Below, piece after piece: positions 23,348 to 33,134 of a stretch of 40,227 nucleotides of DNA. Every line of letters begins with the position of its first letter. Position 1 is the stretch's first letter. The stretch spans positions 1 through 40,227 of the forward strand of contig CALKJI010000012.1 in NCBI GenBank assembly GCA_937995655.1, written 5' to 3'. The stretch comes from an uncultured Pseudothermotoga sp. (GTDB taxonomy: Bacteria; Thermotogota; Thermotogae; Thermotogales; DSM-5069). The notes beneath the pieces are model-generated. The model was not told where the DNA came from. It searched no databases and saw only the letters and a list, made by a program, of their open reading frames with translations. The position numbers and the translations under genes were made by a program.

Positions 23348-24379
23348 TCATCCATATCTTTTCAAGAATAAATCGTAGAGTTCTTTATTTTCCCTGACAA
23401 TCTCTAAAGCGAACTTTGCATGATCTGTTGCGTAACCATTCCCTATGATCATGTCAACGTCCTTACCTATTCCCTCAGCACCAAGGGCTGCCTTTGTGAA
23501 ACTGGTAGCCATCGAAAAGAAGTATACCTTACCACGGTTTCTTGCACACATAATGGAAGTCATCTCTGTATCAGGCACATTCACGACATTTATGACAACG
23601 TCAGCAAGTTTCCCATCGTTGAGCTTTATGAATTTTTCATAAGTTCCCACAGCATCTTGTGCATCAGCGACGAGTGTTTTATCTACAACACCAAGATCTG
23701 TCAGTTCCTTTATGGAACGTTCTGAGTGCACAAGGCCTATAACGTTGCCAGTTGGTCCTGCATACTTTTTGGCAACGTAACAGCACAGTATACCAGATTT
23801 ACCCCCAGCACCCATGATCAAAACAGTATCACCTGGTGAAACCAATCTCGCAGTTTGTATAGGAGCACCAGCCACATCAAGAATTGCAAGAGCTACAGAT
23901 TCCGGCATATCTTGTGGAAGTTTTGCAAAAACACCTGTTTCAAAAAGTATGGCCTGTGCGTCGACATCAACTTGGTCTTTGTCAAGGTGAACTTTCTTGA
24001 TTTTTCTGAGATTCAACGGTGTTAGACTCAAAGAGACCAATGTTGCAATCTTATCGCCTTCCTTTAAGTCCAGGTTCAGATCTTTTCCAATTTTTCCTAC
24101 AACACCTATTAACATTCCTCCCGATCCAGTCACTGGGTTGTGCATTTTTCCCCTTTCTTTGACGATTTGCATGATTTTGTCTGCTACCTTTTCTTCATCC
24201 TTGCCTACTTCATTTTTTATTTGTGTAAAGGAAGCTGCATCGATGTTCAATTTGATCACATCGATCAGGATTTCATTGTCATATAGTTTAGAAGTATCAT
24301 TATCGAGCTTCCATGCTGGTTGTGGTAACTTACCTTTCGGTTCTATAACTCTGTGTATACCGAATGGATCCCCGCGCAC
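23348..24379 (-). CDS. kdd: L-erythro-3,5-diaminohexanoate dehydrogenase
   Basis: NAD(P)-dependent enzyme that oxidatively deaminates 3,5-diaminohexanoate to 5-amino-3-oxohexanoate in lysine fermentation. The N-terminus 'GDPFGIHRVIEPKGKLPQPA' and 'KMHNPVTGSGGMLIGVVGKI' are strongly characteristic of Kdd, and the Rossmann domain has 'PGDTVLIMGAGGKSGILCCY' and 'VYFFSMATSFTKAALGAEGI'. About 343 aa is the normal length. GTG 24379 is preferred over GTG 24385, which lies one base from the GGAGG. Oddly, the usual partners (kamA, kamDE, kce, kal) are not in this window: the neighbours are a sugar-binding protein and an unknown gene. It may serve a remote lysine cluster or an analogous 3,5-diamino acid substrate. 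Confidence 0.85.
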   Translation of the reverse strand: MRGDPFGIHRVIEPKGKLPQPAWKLDNDTSKLYDNEILIDVIKLNIDAASFTQIKNEVGKDEEKVADKIMQIVKERGKMHNPVTGSGGMLIGVVGKIGKDLNLDLKEGDKIATLVSLSLTPLNLRKIKKVHLDKDQVDVDAQAILFETGVFAKLPQDMPESVALAILDVAGAPIQTARLVSPGDTVLIMGAGGKSGILCCYVAKKYAGPTGNVIGLVHSERSIKELTDLGVVDKTLVADAQDAVGTYEKFIKLNDGKLADVVINVVNVPDTEMTSIMCARNRGKVYFFSMATSFTKAALGAEGIGKDVDMIIGNGYATDHAKFALEIVRENKELYDLFLKRYG

Positions 24380-24397
24380 AAACACACCTCCACAGGC

Positions 24398-28746: not shown

Positions 28747-29427
28747 TCAAGCTCTTGTGCTTGTTGAAACAATCCTTTCAAGGACGATCTTCAACCTTTT
28801 GGAATCTGAGCTTGAGAAAAGTTGATGAAGATTCTCACGGTTCAGCAGTGACAAAACAGGCATGAAAGTGAGGCGATGGAAGACAGTTGGACCCAATAAT
28901 TTCAGTCTATCGATATGAGATTTTGTCGCGTAACCCTTGTGTTTTGAAAAACCGTAACCCGGATAGACTTTGTCATAGGATTTCATGATCTTATCACGTA
29001 CCACCTTTGCAACGATCGATGCTGCCGCTATAGATGCACTTTTTGTATCTCCCTTGACAACACAAGTACCTTGCATAGAGAGTTTTAAGTATTTTCCATC
29101 AATTAATACGAAACCTTCCTGGTTAAGCATCCTCAATGCTCTGTTCATTGCAAGTTTTGTAGCATTCAAGATATTGTATATATCGATCTCTTCAGCAGAG
29201 GCAAGTCCTATACCAACTTGTGCTATTTCCATTATCTGTTCAAAAAGTCTTTCACGTTGGTTCACCGTGAGTTGTTTGGAATCAAAGACATCCAGTTTAT
29301 CTTTCAACACAACCGCGGCCGCCACGACCGGACCAGCAATGCAACCTCTGCCCGCCTCATCTACGCCTATGATCTTCGCGAAGGTTCTCCTATAGAAATT
29401 GTCAAACTCAAAAAGTTCATCTCTCAT
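28747..29427 (-). CDS. rnhB: Ribonuclease HII
   Basis: Cleaves RNA strands and single ribonucleotides in RNA-DNA hybrids during replication. The active-site motif is 'KIIGVDEAGRGCIAGPVVAA' (18-37, D23/E24), followed by 'FDSKQLTVNQRERLFEQI', 'GFVLIDGKYLKLSM' (third acidic residue), 'GDTKSASIAAASIVAKVVRD' and 'YGFSKHKGYATKSHIDRLKL' with 'LGPTVFHRLTFMPVLSLL'. Length of 226 aa is normal with a short N-terminal extension. The start overlaps the ATP-grasp gene by 11 bp and has no strong ribosome site, so translation probably depends on that upstream gene even though the functions look unrelated. Confidence 0.95.
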   Translation of the reverse strand: MRDELFEFDNFYRRTFAKIIGVDEAGRGCIAGPVVAAAVVLKDKLDVFDSKQLTVNQRERLFEQIMEIAQVGIGLASAEEIDIYNILNATKLAMNRALRMLNQEGFVLIDGKYLKLSMQGTCVVKGDTKSASIAAASIVAKVVRDKIMKSYDKVYPGYGFSKHKGYATKSHIDRLKLLGPTVFHRLTFMPVLSLLNRENLHQLFSSSDSKRLKIVLERIVSTSTRA

Positions 29428-30331
29428 AGTGTCTTATAGCATCATCAAGTATCCTCAGTACCATCTCATCGTAAGAATATCCCGCCGCCTGCGCCATCTT
29501 AATGATATCAGAATAATTTGGTGTTAACATGGGAAGCGAATTGACTTCGAGAAAATATATATGATCGTCTTTCACTCTCAGATCCATTCTGGCATAATTT
29601 CTAAGGCCTAAAACTTTGAATGCTTTCAAAGCATAGCTCTTTATCTTTCTTTCCAATCCTTCGTCAATCTGCGCAGGGCAGATATATCGTGTATGTTCGC
29701 CATATTCATGTTTGACTCTGTAAGAATAGAACCTTTCTAATCCTTCAGGCAAAGTGGAAAAGTCTATTTCCAGAATTGGCAGAACCTTGCCAGCTAAGAT
29801 ACCTACACTGAACTCCCTGCCATCTATAAATTGTTCAACGAGTGCCGCTTGCTTGAATTGTTCGTGTATTTCTTTGACCTTTCTGACCAGTGAATCATAG
29901 TCCCAAACCACCGAATCTGCAGCAAGCCCCTTTGCACTACCTTCAGAGGATGGTTTTACAATAGCCGGATAAAAGTCAATTTGTGGCACTTCTTCTGCCA
30001 GTCCCACACTCACAAAGGAAGCTGTCGGTATACCATAGTATGAAAGAATGATCTTCGTCTTGACTTTATCTATACAGGTAGCGTGTGCTTCTGGGGACGA
30101 ACCAGTGTAGGGTATTTTCAAAATCTCTAATATCGCTGGAACATGAAGTTGTCTTGAAGCAGTTGAAAGATTGAAAACTGCGTCAAATTGAGTTATTCTT
30201 TCAAAAAAGTCATCCTCAAAAGCCAGCAATTGTACTGAATATTTTTTTGATAGCGCCCTGTAAATAGATTGAATCATCAACTCTCTTGAGTCATCAAGGT
30301 TTGATTTATCATAGACTACAGCAACCTTCAA
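29417..30331 (-). CDS. ATP-grasp ligase related to D-alanine-D-alanine ligase
   Basis: ATP-grasp carboxylate-amine ligase with Ddl-like architecture: 'EILKIPYTGSSPEAHATCID' and 'KVKTKIILSYYGIP' (substrate-entry and first ATP-lobe elements), 'PAIVKPSSEGSAKGL' (ATP-binding lysine and loop), 'LVEQFIDGREFSVGIL', 'YARMDLRVKDDHIYFLEVNS' and 'LPMLTPNYSDIIKMAQAAGY' (metal-binding and C-terminal motifs). The Ddl segment before IPYTGS, normally G-x-x-GEDG, is here 'STASRQLHVPAILE', and the N-terminal Gly-rich site with its Glu is also altered, so the substrate is probably not D-Ala plus D-Ala. TTG 30331 gives a TTGA overlap with the B12 gene and sits nine bases after AGGAGG; ATG 30340 would touch the ribosome site. 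Third gene of a tightly coupled trio. Confidence 0.8.
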   Translation of the reverse strand: MKVAVVYDKSNLDDSRELMIQSIYRALSKKYSVQLLAFEDDFFERITQFDAVFNLSTASRQLHVPAILEILKIPYTGSSPEAHATCIDKVKTKIILSYYGIPTASFVSVGLAEEVPQIDFYPAIVKPSSEGSAKGLAADSVVWDYDSLVRKVKEIHEQFKQAALVEQFIDGREFSVGILAGKVLPILEIDFSTLPEGLERFYSYRVKHEYGEHTRYICPAQIDEGLERKIKSYALKAFKVLGLRNYARMDLRVKDDHIYFLEVNSLPMLTPNYSDIIKMAQAAGYSYDEMVLRILDDAIRHYER

Positions 30332-31962
30332 TTTATCCATCCTCCTAAAATACTTTTTAACCTCTTTTTCTCTGGCACAACATTTTCTTCATCATCTACA
30401 GACCTACAGAGACCATCTATGATTTGAGTCTTTATCCTTCCCTTTGCAACGGAAAAACCTTTCAAGGCTGGTGCGTCGAGTATACCGGTTTCGACAGATT
30501 TATACAGGACATGTGGATCTAAGAGATCTTCATCCTTACCACTTTTCAAACCTTTTATCGCTTCTATAATCAATATTGCCTCGTCCTTTATCCTCTCTTT
30601 TTCACTTTTAACCCATTCATCTTTCAGAGGGTCTGGCACGCCTCTAATGGCAAGGTTTATAGCCCTTCTTGACATTTTGACACTTTCTATGATCTCTTTT
30701 GATGTAGCTCTTTTCATCGATTCACAATAAGCTACGACGTGAACAATCTGTGGTTCAATGCACCAACCGTAGAACATGGAAACACTCAGTTGCCCCATGG
30801 CGGCATAAGGATCAGCAGGTACCGACATCAACCCTGTTCTAACCATTCTGTAGACTCTAAAATCTTCATCCTCAAGTGATTCGACTATTTCTTTTTTTGC
30901 CAGCATTTTTGCTATGTCGCCCTTTGGTGAAATCCCAGCTGGTGTCTCAAGCATGAACTGTTGCACGTAGTCCTTTACACCCAAACTCTTCGCAGCAAAG
31001 GCTGCCAAATATGCAGTTGCAACTTCCAGTGCATCGTGGCATACTCTTAAAGCCCATTGATGTGAATCTGTGACTTCAACAGGTACATTGTTTTGAGCGT
31101 TCCATTTGATTGCTTCCATATTCTCCTCTATCGCTTCCAGGAGGGGCCTGGTTGATCTCCTGTCCAAATCGCTGTACCACATGAGAGGTATGGCAGCCCA
31201 GGCATTATTGATCGTTTCTTTTAGAAGTTTTGAAAACTCTACCATGTGCGTTGTACCGGCATAACATCGTACGAGTGGGTAGTTACCTCGCCTTGTGGCT
31301 TGGTACAATTTCACAAAATCTTCACGTGTCCTTATGGGAGCGCCACCGGCACCATCTTGCGAACGATCCATCCTTTCCGGTTCGAAGAAGAATTGTTGAC
31401 AGTTCTGGTCTGGTGCAATTGAGATTATATCTAAGAGCTCTGAATCAGCTAGTTTCTTAATCTCCTCGATGGTTTCTTCAAGTGTCTGCAGACCTATGTG
31501 ATGTCTAATCAATGGGAAGGGCGCCTTGAAATCAACTCTCTCTCTAAGAGTTTGTGGGAATCTTTGAAGATCTTTCTCTTCTCTTGCTTTGCCTCTTAAA
31601 AACATCACTACTTCATCGATTTCTTCAGTTCCGTCGAAAACTTTTTTGATGAAAGAAAATTCCTTTGCCTGCTGGGCTGTTTCTATCGTTCCACCGAATA
31701 TATACGTTTTTGCTGTTAGTTTATGCTCTTTCAACAGATTTTCAAGCTGAAACAAGAGATTCTTCAAAGATTCTGCACCCAATCTATAGCTCATTGCGAC
31801 AACCTCTGGATCGTGCTCTTTTATATGTTCCACCAATTTTTCTATTGTGACAGCGGCACCGGCATAGATGACTTCATAGCCATTTTGCTCTGCCATCTTG
31901 AGAAAATTCAACAAACCAACGTTGTGTACACAACTTCCTATCGAGGCCCCCAAGATTTTCAT
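30328..31962 (-). CDS. B12-binding domain fused to glutamate-mutase-E-like barrel
   Basis: A 544-aa fusion. Residues 1-125 form a cobalamin-binding Rossmann domain: 'GASIGSCVHNVGLLNFL' holds the lower-ligand His (H13) and G16 of DxHxxG but has Cys at the Asp position, 'VVAMSYRLGAESL' matches the SxL motif, and 'TYIFGG' the GG turn. Residues about 145-544 look like the glutamate mutase epsilon subunit (methylaspartate mutase barrel), especially the C-terminal 'VETGILDAPAL' and the helical region before it ('MSRRAINLAIRGVPDPLKDE'). In glutamate mutase the two parts are separate proteins (GlmS, GlmE). A radical carbon-skeleton or amino rearrangement using adenosylcobalamin is therefore likely; the substrate is unknown. 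It overlaps an opine dehydrogenase gene by ATGA and an ATP-grasp gene by TTGA. I rejected lysine 5,6-aminomutase by comparing motifs from memory. Confidence 0.72.
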   Translation of the reverse strand: MKILGASIGSCVHNVGLLNFLKMAEQNGYEVIYAGAAVTIEKLVEHIKEHDPEVVAMSYRLGAESLKNLLFQLENLLKEHKLTAKTYIFGGTIETAQQAKEFSFIKKVFDGTEEIDEVVMFLRGKAREEKDLQRFPQTLRERVDFKAPFPLIRHHIGLQTLEETIEEIKKLADSELLDIISIAPDQNCQQFFFEPERMDRSQDGAGGAPIRTREDFVKLYQATRRGNYPLVRCYAGTTHMVEFSKLLKETINNAWAAIPLMWYSDLDRRSTRPLLEAIEENMEAIKWNAQNNVPVEVTDSHQWALRVCHDALEVATAYLAAFAAKSLGVKDYVQQFMLETPAGISPKGDIAKMLAKKEIVESLEDEDFRVYRMVRTGLMSVPADPYAAMGQLSVSMFYGWCIEPQIVHVVAYCESMKRATSKEIIESVKMSRRAINLAIRGVPDPLKDEWVKSEKERIKDEAILIIEAIKGLKSGKDEDLLDPHVLYKSVETGILDAPALKGFSVAKGRIKTQIIDGLCRSVDDEENVVPEKKRLKSILGGWIN

Positions 31963-33038
31963 TCTCCCACCTCCATTATGTGTTTTATCTGTTCAACCGT
32001 CTTGTTTTCAAGATGAAGCCTGTGAAAATTTCTACCTTCTTTGAAGAAATCTATTCCCATCATCAAGGAAGCAAGCCGAATTACTGAGTCAATGATGGGT
32101 GTGTCGACATTCACAACCTTTCCAAAGGCTGAAATGGGAACAAGGCTTGTGGGAACATCTTCAAGGATGTACCTGTTTTCCAAACTAGTGGGGGCTTGAA
32201 TTCCTCTATAGCCTTCGTTGTTGTGTATAGCGTCGTATAAATTCGAGCCTCTAACATCATAGGCATATCCAAGCCACTGAACGGCCGTCATGGGTTCTAT
32301 TCCGAATCTCTTTGCTACCTGGCACCTTTCATCATCGATCGCTTCGAGTACCTTTGCCACAGATTGACTGATCCCTTCAAAGTAAAACTCGAACTTACCA
32401 AAGGTTGACTCTACCCACCCTGTGTTCAAGATTATCGTTGCAGGATGAAAAACTGCACCAATATTGTTGAAACTTGTATGGAGTGTACTAGGTGCTATCT
32501 CAAACTCTGGCATGACCTTCAAAAGAGTTTTTTCTAATTCATTGTTTCTACTCGCTGGTAACGCAGCAACTGGTACGGCGTTCTTTATTCTAAATATTCT
32601 CACAACACCCGGGTTTGAGGCACGCGAGGCAAAAACAAAGGTCTGCGCTTCAGCAATAATTATATCCTTTTTGACCCCTTCTTCTTTTAGACTATTGTAG
32701 AATTCCAAGGCTCCTGCGGTTCTACCTGGGTTCAGAACGACGATCTGGCCGTCTTCAAAATAAGGCGACATCTTTTTGGCAATTTCTCTGTGGGCAAAGG
32801 CCGGCAACACGACCATCAGCAACTGGCGACCCTCCATCGCCTTTTCGATCTCGGTCGTGGCAAAAGATATCTCTGCGGTCGCATTGATCTCTCCCTCAAC
32901 CTTGATTTTATTTGTTTTCATGATAGGTGCTATTCTCCAAGCACTACGATTGTAAAGAGAAACATCGAAGCCTTTCAACGCAAGATAAGCAGCCAAAGCC
33001 TGTCCACCATTTCCTGCACCAATTATGCATATTTTCAT
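31959..33038 (-). CDS. NAD/NADP octopine/opine dehydrogenase family protein
   Basis: Two-domain dehydrogenase: an N-terminal Rossmann fold with 'KICIIGAGNGGQALAAYLAL', 'GRQLLMVVLPAFAHREIAKK' and 'GQIVVLNPGRTAGALEF', and a C-terminal all-helical opine-dehydrogenase domain with 'TLHTSFNNIGAVFHPATIIL', 'AKRFGIEPMTAVQWLGYAYD' and 'NRYILEDVPTSLVPISAFGK' (the last is strongly typical). Family members reductively couple an amino acid amino group to a 2-oxo acid, or run the reverse. The catalytic His-Asp pair of opine dehydrogenases is probably within the HPATIIL and following region. Length of 359 aa is normal. GGAGG lies eight bases upstream of the ATG. First gene of the operon with the B12 protein and the ATP-grasp ligase. 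Confidence 0.85.
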   Translation of the reverse strand: MKICIIGAGNGGQALAAYLALKGFDVSLYNRSAWRIAPIMKTNKIKVEGEINATAEISFATTEIEKAMEGRQLLMVVLPAFAHREIAKKMSPYFEDGQIVVLNPGRTAGALEFYNSLKEEGVKKDIIIAEAQTFVFASRASNPGVVRIFRIKNAVPVAALPASRNNELEKTLLKVMPEFEIAPSTLHTSFNNIGAVFHPATIILNTGWVESTFGKFEFYFEGISQSVAKVLEAIDDERCQVAKRFGIEPMTAVQWLGYAYDVRGSNLYDAIHNNEGYRGIQAPTSLENRYILEDVPTSLVPISAFGKVVNVDTPIIDSVIRLASLMMGIDFFKEGRNFHRLHLENKTVEQIKHIMEVGE

Positions 33039-33105
33039 AGCAAATACCTCCTATTTATTGATAAAATATATGGGAATTCCAACGTTCTAAGCTTTGTTTT
33101 CTTTT

Positions 33106-33134
33106 ACTTTATCATTATATTTCAAAATTGTCAA
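33106..33134 (-). promoter_or_regulatory. Candidate promoter for opine dehydrogenase-B12-ligase operon
   Basis: A perfect TTGACA (33129-33134 read on the minus strand) has TAAAGT 17 bp downstream (33106-33111). A TATAAT (33114-33119) also lies between them but at the wrong spacing. No B12-riboswitch box was seen in the leader. Confidence 0.4.

Follow-up and report, generated by a model that had tools for sequence, protein, structure and literature searches.

The window analysed here is the whole 40,227-nucleotide stretch of contig C12 of the Thermotogota genome G000, an uncultured Pseudothermotoga sp. It carries on its minus strand a set of three genes, encoding an opine dehydrogenase (ODH), a fusion of a B12-binding domain to a mutase barrel, and an ATP-grasp ligase. 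The gene families and their order, as given in an initial annotation of this sequence, were confirmed by the open reading frames and by Pfam searches. The genes, domains and signals are as follows.

31959–33038, minus strand: opine (octopine/CENDH-type) dehydrogenase, ODH, 359 aa (PF02317, E 4e-48).
30328–31962, minus strand: putative B12-dependent mutase, a fusion of a cobalamin-binding domain followed by a glutamate-mutase-E-like TIM barrel, 544 aa (assigned by Pfam, AlphaFold2 model, PDB and profile comparisons).
31576–31962, minus strand: cobalamin-binding domain of the fusion, about residues 1–129, with the motif C/D-x-H-x-x-G, the invariant H13 and the family signature SYRL at residues 58–61.
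30340–31566, minus strand: mutase barrel of the fusion, about residues 133–541, with residues invariant in the alignment.
29417–30331, minus strand: ATP-grasp ligase of the D-Ala-D-Ala ligase (Ddl) superfamily, 304 aa from TTG 30331 (PF07478, E 3e-32).
33047–33052, minus strand: AGGAGG ribosome-binding site of the dehydrogenase gene, read from the sequence.
33106–33134, minus strand: sigma-70-like promoter candidate TTGACA-17-TAAAGT upstream of the dehydrogenase gene, by consensus match only.
30341–30346, minus strand: AGGAGG before the ligase gene, read from the sequence, with a spacing that favours the TTG start.

The ODH and mutase genes overlap by 4 bp in an ATGA junction (31962-31959). 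With the first ATG of the ligase (30340; open reading frame 29417-30340), the mutase/ligase overlap would be 13 bp; with TTG 30331 as the start, the two genes share just the 4 bp TTGA at the mutase stop. The AGGAGG at 30346-30341 abuts ATG 30340 but sits 9 nt ahead of TTG 30331, and because of this better spacing TTG 30331 is the best-supported start of the ligase. Close relatives of the ligase align from about the same residue as the protein started at TTG. With the ligase taken from TTG 30331 both overlaps are 4 bp, so that the 4-bp overlap annotated at each junction holds. Downstream, the ligase gene overlaps rnhB (29427) by 11 bp, followed by apt, pgi and coaE, all housekeeping genes, and the transcript probably runs on into rnhB and further housekeeping genes. 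Elsewhere in the window (23348-24385, minus strand) there is a gene for L-erythro-3,5-diaminohexanoate dehydrogenase (KDD, NF052381 over cutoff); this gene of lysine fermentation is set apart from other kam genes in the window.

The ODH scores 163.8 bits against PF02317, over the cutoff, and its best solved structure is 1bg6 (CENDH), matched over the full length with E 4e-76. Five residues, H198, W255, R289, E293 and D294, are invariant in 51 of 51 homologs. Judged from its sequence, the enzyme keeps the octopine-dehydrogenase catalytic set of H198, R289 and D294 and belongs to the opine dehydrogenases (octopine dehydrogenase/CENDH), with reductive amination of an α-keto acid with an amino acid as its predicted reaction.

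The AlphaFold2 model of the ligase (pLDDT 94.6) is best matched by chain 8evy_C, DdlB, with Z 34.0 and rmsd 2.4 over 287 aligned residues at 30% identity, and no relative closer than Ddl was found in the structural comparison. The protein retains the ATP-grasp fold together with the ATP/Mg and acyl-phosphate residues. It falls under every NCBIfam Ddl cutoff (171.2 bits vs 243), and the GGxSxE first-substrate motif of Ddl is absent from it. A separate, better Ddl-like gene is present on contig C5 of the same genome. It is also noted that a second paralog of the trio ligase (41% identity) is encoded on contig C3 (L069, 8223-9633), beside a small protein whose sequence start resembles that of CoA-binding proteins, and that the same pair of paralog and small protein occurs at L087.

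In the fusion, residues 2-98 match the B12-binding family PF02310 (E 5e-13), and residues 345-500 match the MutE-like family PF06368 with E 2e-5 and 23.8 bits, below the curated gathering threshold of 26.6 bits. One Mesotoga-like relative reaches 27.2 bits against PF06368 as a single protein. Our sample comprised 101 Thermotogota genomes, from which 44 fusion loci were read, and a whole-genome search of these 101 gave no match to MutE over the cutoff. The AlphaFold2 model of the fusion (pLDDT 93.9) has as its closest PDB chain 1cb7_B, glutamate mutase E (Z 32.2, rmsd 2.9 Å, 376 aligned residues), with lower matches to lysine 5,6-aminomutase and ornithine 4,5-aminomutase (OAM; Z 27-31) and to methylmalonyl-CoA mutase (about Z 22). 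Because a direct sequence search of the barrel against solved structures with profile A2 gave chance matches only, the fold and a profile-profile comparison were used. A profile of 44 barrels against 11 GlmE-like sequences yields E 5e-10 over 355 columns, so homology to GlmE is supported by sequence too. The alignment with hhalign covers only the C-terminal part against the single E. coli GlmE and the full length against the 11 GlmE-like sequences. An identity of the fusion as methylmalonyl-CoA mutase was rejected; the genome has its own such mutase with a B12 subunit on contig C9 (L028, 8007-11000), where the large-subunit gene is followed by one for a separate B12-binding subunit and one for a GTPase that, judged by its sequence start, is MeaB-like. 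The genome also encodes a 257-aa B12 protein that is possibly the beta subunit of lysine 5,6-aminomutase.

The cobalamin histidine H13 is invariant (42/42) in the motif C/D-x-H-x-x-G, the first position being D in 20 sequences and C in 22. The barrel invariants are R153, H155, Q186, Q189, R232, Y234, R269, E296, H301, R375, H408 and E414. In the alignment to Clostridium cochlearium GlmE, the arginine claw R66, R100 and R149, which together with E171 we take to bind the glutamate substrate, corresponds to H155, Q189 and Y234 (invariant or nearly so), while E171 aligns with an alanine and K326 with a valine. GlmE E214 and E330 are conserved and correspond to E296 and E414 of the fusion. R153, R232, R269, R375, H301 and H408 are located on or just after the same strands as the aligned GlmE pocket positions. 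The OAM segment that carries a lysine, presumably the one anchoring pyridoxal phosphate in aminomutases, is an insertion absent from the fusion, and there is no conserved lysine nearby. Since the claw arginines are replaced by invariant His/Gln/Tyr and the pyridoxal lysine is missing, the fusion is a member of the GlmE superfamily that lies outside the glutamate mutases, the pyridoxal-phosphate aminomutases and any characterised mutase family. The other objection foreseen in the initial annotation, a place inside a characterised mutase family with another role, is therefore not borne out. The altered barrel pocket also indicates that the substrate is probably not glutamate. A methylaspartate-like product, offered as an example in the initial annotation, did not fare well: the methylaspartate route is unlikely, because no GlmE proper was found in the 101 genomes and the substrate-binding positions are changed. 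Methylaspartate ammonia-lyase also had no match in 61 genomes, weak evidence given that its control had no match in either search.

The fusion is present in 64 of the 101 Thermotogota genomes, and the same search did not find it in genus g5 of family f2. A protein search, which with the single fusion sequence reaches close relatives only, returned mostly Pseudothermotoga sp. and other Thermotogota records; the phyla covered in this study are Thermotogota and Bacteroidota. At the Thermotogota loci the ODH gene is directly adjacent to and co-directional with the mutase gene in 43/44 cases, and the ligase gene is adjacent as well in 28/44, so that a lack of co-conservation among relatives, which the initial annotation had allowed for, is not borne out. 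Three gene orders occur, ODH-mutase-ligase, ligase-ODH-mutase and ODH-ligase-mutase (OML, LOM and OLM). In genomes with an unlinked ligase, this gene is mostly encoded elsewhere in the genome. Trio-type ligases, delimited by a rule on score and linkage that was set by hand, occur in 54 of the 64 mutase-bearing genomes vs 2 of the 37 without the mutase (Fisher p 9e-16, kinship ignored). Linkage of the ligase is not universal, and about ten genomes that have the mutase lack the ligase, for which reason we regard the dehydrogenase-mutase pair as the core. As the three genes persist across families of Thermotogota and their flanks vary, their grouping is far beyond chance. In G006, a genome of the window's family, the ODH (81%) and the ligase (64%) are close orthologs of those in the window and the mutase is divergent (33%); a different member of the mutase superfamily has taken over the slot there.

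Additional partners are seen at some Thermotogota loci. An AsnB-like partner is present at L030 and in Mesotoga-like Thermotogota, and at L037 an ornithine aminotransferase gene lies 85 bp downstream of the ODH-mutase pair. At L031 (896-13639; genome G091) the pair occurs twice, about 8 kb apart; between the copies are aspartate kinase/homoserine dehydrogenase-, threonine synthase- and homoserine kinase-like genes, as judged by sequence starts, followed by the AsnB-like gene. At five loci of family f2 (L071, L072, L073, L079 and L081) the unlinked ligase stands beside a dihydropyrimidinase/hydantoinase-like amidohydrolase (TIGR02033, 310 bits, below cutoff), at several of them also with a small kinase-like protein. 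This amidohydrolase was considered and may be a member of the pathway; it occurs in family f2 only.

Bacteroidota in the present survey means the phylum group to which G101 belongs; the contig of G101 itself bears the title Chlorobiota. ODH adjoins the mutase at 12 loci of this group (L004, L096, L097, L098, L102, L103 and L137-L142), and at L104 both lie within one cluster. Most of the Bacteroidota loci have an ATP-dependent amide-forming enzyme close to the pair, of four kinds: a CPSase-type ATP-grasp (L004, L139, L141), an ATP-grasp_4 type (L098, L102, L137), an AsnB-like enzyme (L096, L097) and a Ddl-like ligase (L140). The pair is repeatedly combined with different carboxylate-activating enzymes. 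Eight loci have the look of polysaccharide clusters (L098, L102, L104, L137, L138, L139, L141 and probably L103), holding DegT-type sugar aminotransferases, glycosyltransferases, flippases or sugar-nucleotide enzymes; the contigs of L103 and L138 are short, and for several of the cluster genes the name comes from the start of the sequence only. A weak match to PylC-like_N (E 5e-4, below cutoff) is seen in one capsule ATP-grasp. Most of the polysaccharide loci carry divergent mutases with about 30% identity to the barrel of the window, L141 being closer at 43%, and because of this divergence the product in Bacteroidota may differ. At L140 (7591-14083, Bacteroidales), genes for ODH, a divergent mutase, a Ddl-like ligase, an ornithine-racemase-like protein (NF040742, E 2e-117, 392 bits, below the 480-bit cutoff) and a B12-binding radical-SAM protein follow in series; the racemase-like gene hints weakly at a diamino acid. 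According to a passage in PMC10609480 that cites the finding, alanopine amide-linked to 4-amino-4,6-dideoxyglucose is part of the O-antigen of Providencia alcalifaciens O35; the acylation of amino sugars with opines is established chemistry.

Based on the observed gene set, its conservation, the folds, the cofactor and catalytic residues and the neighbourhoods, we lean, with modest confidence, toward the trio being a biosynthetic module in which a GlmE-fold adenosylcobalamin mutase, an opine-type dehydrogenase and an ATP-grasp ligase would together make a rearranged, N-substituted or amide-coupled amino acid. The radical chemistry, the order of the steps and the class of product are inferred. 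In this module the fusion would act as an adenosylcobalamin-dependent carbon-skeleton mutase, binding cobalamin base-off through H13 and generating the radical in the barrel. The ODH would act on a C-N bond of the amino acid, either ahead of its rearrangement or following it, in an NAD(P)-dependent reduction or in the opposite, oxidative direction, and the ligase would convert a carboxylate through an acyl-phosphate into an amide. The synthetic direction is likewise inferred, being favoured because of the ATP-consuming ligase and the polysaccharide clusters. The product would be free in Thermotogota, and in several Bacteroidales it would be linked to a sugar of the surface polysaccharide; some gut bacteria appear to couple it to surface sugars. 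Such attachment, which the initial annotation did not consider, has support in Bacteroidota, and the metallophore and wall-modifying dipeptide suggested there found no support in this analysis.

Several points weigh against the biosynthetic module. The residue mapping comes from a profile alignment at 17% identity, with a possible shift of one or two residues, and the conserved R153 and R232, two positions upstream, might take over the role of the claw. The reactivase MutL, present in 28 of 61 Thermotogota genomes searched, was not detected in the window's genome or family. A trio-type ligase is missing from ten of the genomes with the mutase, of which eight belong to the one family f9, and searches for a cobalamin riboswitch around the window locus and at nine related loci were negative. 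The polysaccharide context is confined to Bacteroidota, with mostly divergent mutases and other ATP-grasp types, and may not extend to Thermotogota. The functions given here are deduced from sequence and predicted structure.

The alternative that survives best is a B12-dependent counterpart of the pyrrolysine pathway, in which the GlmE-fold mutase would rearrange lysine or ornithine (maybe in the D form) to a methyl-branched diamino acid, the Ddl-like ligase would couple it and the dehydrogenase would oxidise or cyclise it. The result would be a new amide-linked metabolite that in Bacteroidales decorates surface polysaccharide. PylB, PylC and PylD comprise the same three activities of mutase, ligase and dehydrogenase acting on an amino acid (PMC8318568). 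The ornithine-racemase-like gene after the ODH, mutase and Ddl-like ligase genes of L140, the ornithine aminotransferase beside the pair in L037 and the PylC-like_N match of the capsule ATP-grasp are in agreement with this pathway; however, every hint of a diamino acid comes from a single locus. The radical mechanism of glutamate mutase formally parallels the PylB rearrangement. The ODH family differs from that of PylD, the top matches of the window ligase, by structure or by sequence, include no PylC, and the four invariant barrel arginines fit an acidic substrate equally. We consider a pathway of this kind unlikely, whether for the enzymes themselves or for the metabolite and its attachment.

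It is doubtful that the set produces an osmolyte, namely an amidated dipeptide-like or opine-like compatible solute. The AsnB-like partner in Mesotoga-like Thermotogota and at two Bacteroidota loci partially matches N-acetylglutaminylglutamine amidotransferase, an osmolyte enzyme (TIGR03104, 137 of 570 bits, far below cutoff), but scores higher against plain asparagine synthase. No osmoregulated promoter or transporter linkage was seen, and the polysaccharide context does not fit. Quite improbable is a catabolic role in opine or peptide breakdown for amino-acid fermentation, with the ODH working oxidatively and the mutase opening the skeleton as in the methylaspartate pathway. The genome does have amino-acid-fermentation genes (KDD in the window and the possible lysine 5,6-aminomutase beta subunit), but an operon that includes an ATP-consuming ligase speaks for synthesis, the Bacteroidota polysaccharide clusters are biosynthetic, and the searches for MutE and, as weak evidence, for the ammonia-lyase were negative as given above. 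That three independent housekeeping genes became neighbours by chance in a dense thermophile genome is very improbable: the genes do run on into the unrelated series rnhB, apt, pgi and coaE, as is common in small genomes, but the near-constant ODH-mutase adjacency with changing flanks, the three placements of the ligase and the same sets in another phylum refute chance for the ODH-mutase pair.

Each enzyme of the proposed biosynthetic module belongs to a known superfamily; what seems to be new is the mutase clade and the three-gene set. Both are apparently undescribed, as no description of either, and no named pathway with this set, was found in the open-access literature, in keeping with the initial annotation. 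To our knowledge, very few adenosylcobalamin carbon-skeleton mutases have been described. A clade of mutases whose pocket is altered, found in most of the sampled Thermotogota genera and also in Bacteroidales polysaccharide loci, would add a new reaction to B12 biochemistry and offers a possible reason for a B12 need in polysaccharide synthesis. The conserved gene set makes the question of the substrate directly approachable.

Compared with known systems, the fusion resembles GlmE/GlmS in its barrel fold, in its cobalamin domain with an axial histidine and in the equivalents of E330 and E214. It differs in that the two parts are fused, with the B12 domain first and the barrel second, in the alignment of the claw with H/Q/Y and the replacement of E171 by Ala and K326 by Val, in its other gene partners, and in the lack of a detected MutL in the window's genome. 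The ODH resembles CENDH (1bg6) and octopine dehydrogenase in its full-length match and its catalytic H/R/D; in the present set it is tied to a B12 mutase. The ligase shares with DdlB the fold and the ATP/acyl-phosphate residues, and is unlike it in scoring below the Ddl cutoffs and in the absent GGxSxE. Any likeness to PylBCD would be in function only, as the mutase, ligase and dehydrogenase of the trio are from other families; PylB is a radical SAM enzyme and not a B12 enzyme. No plasmid-borne relatives of the fusion were found. Plasmids of Methylobacter and Streptomyces (L112 and L114) encode side by side a B12-binding protein, a methylaspartate-mutase-like (GlmE-family) protein and asparagine synthetase A, which suggests methylasparagine-type chemistry. 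Unlike the trio, these sets have separate subunits that are closer relatives of GlmE, with no opine dehydrogenase seen and, in Streptomyces, a nonribosomal peptide synthetase next door.

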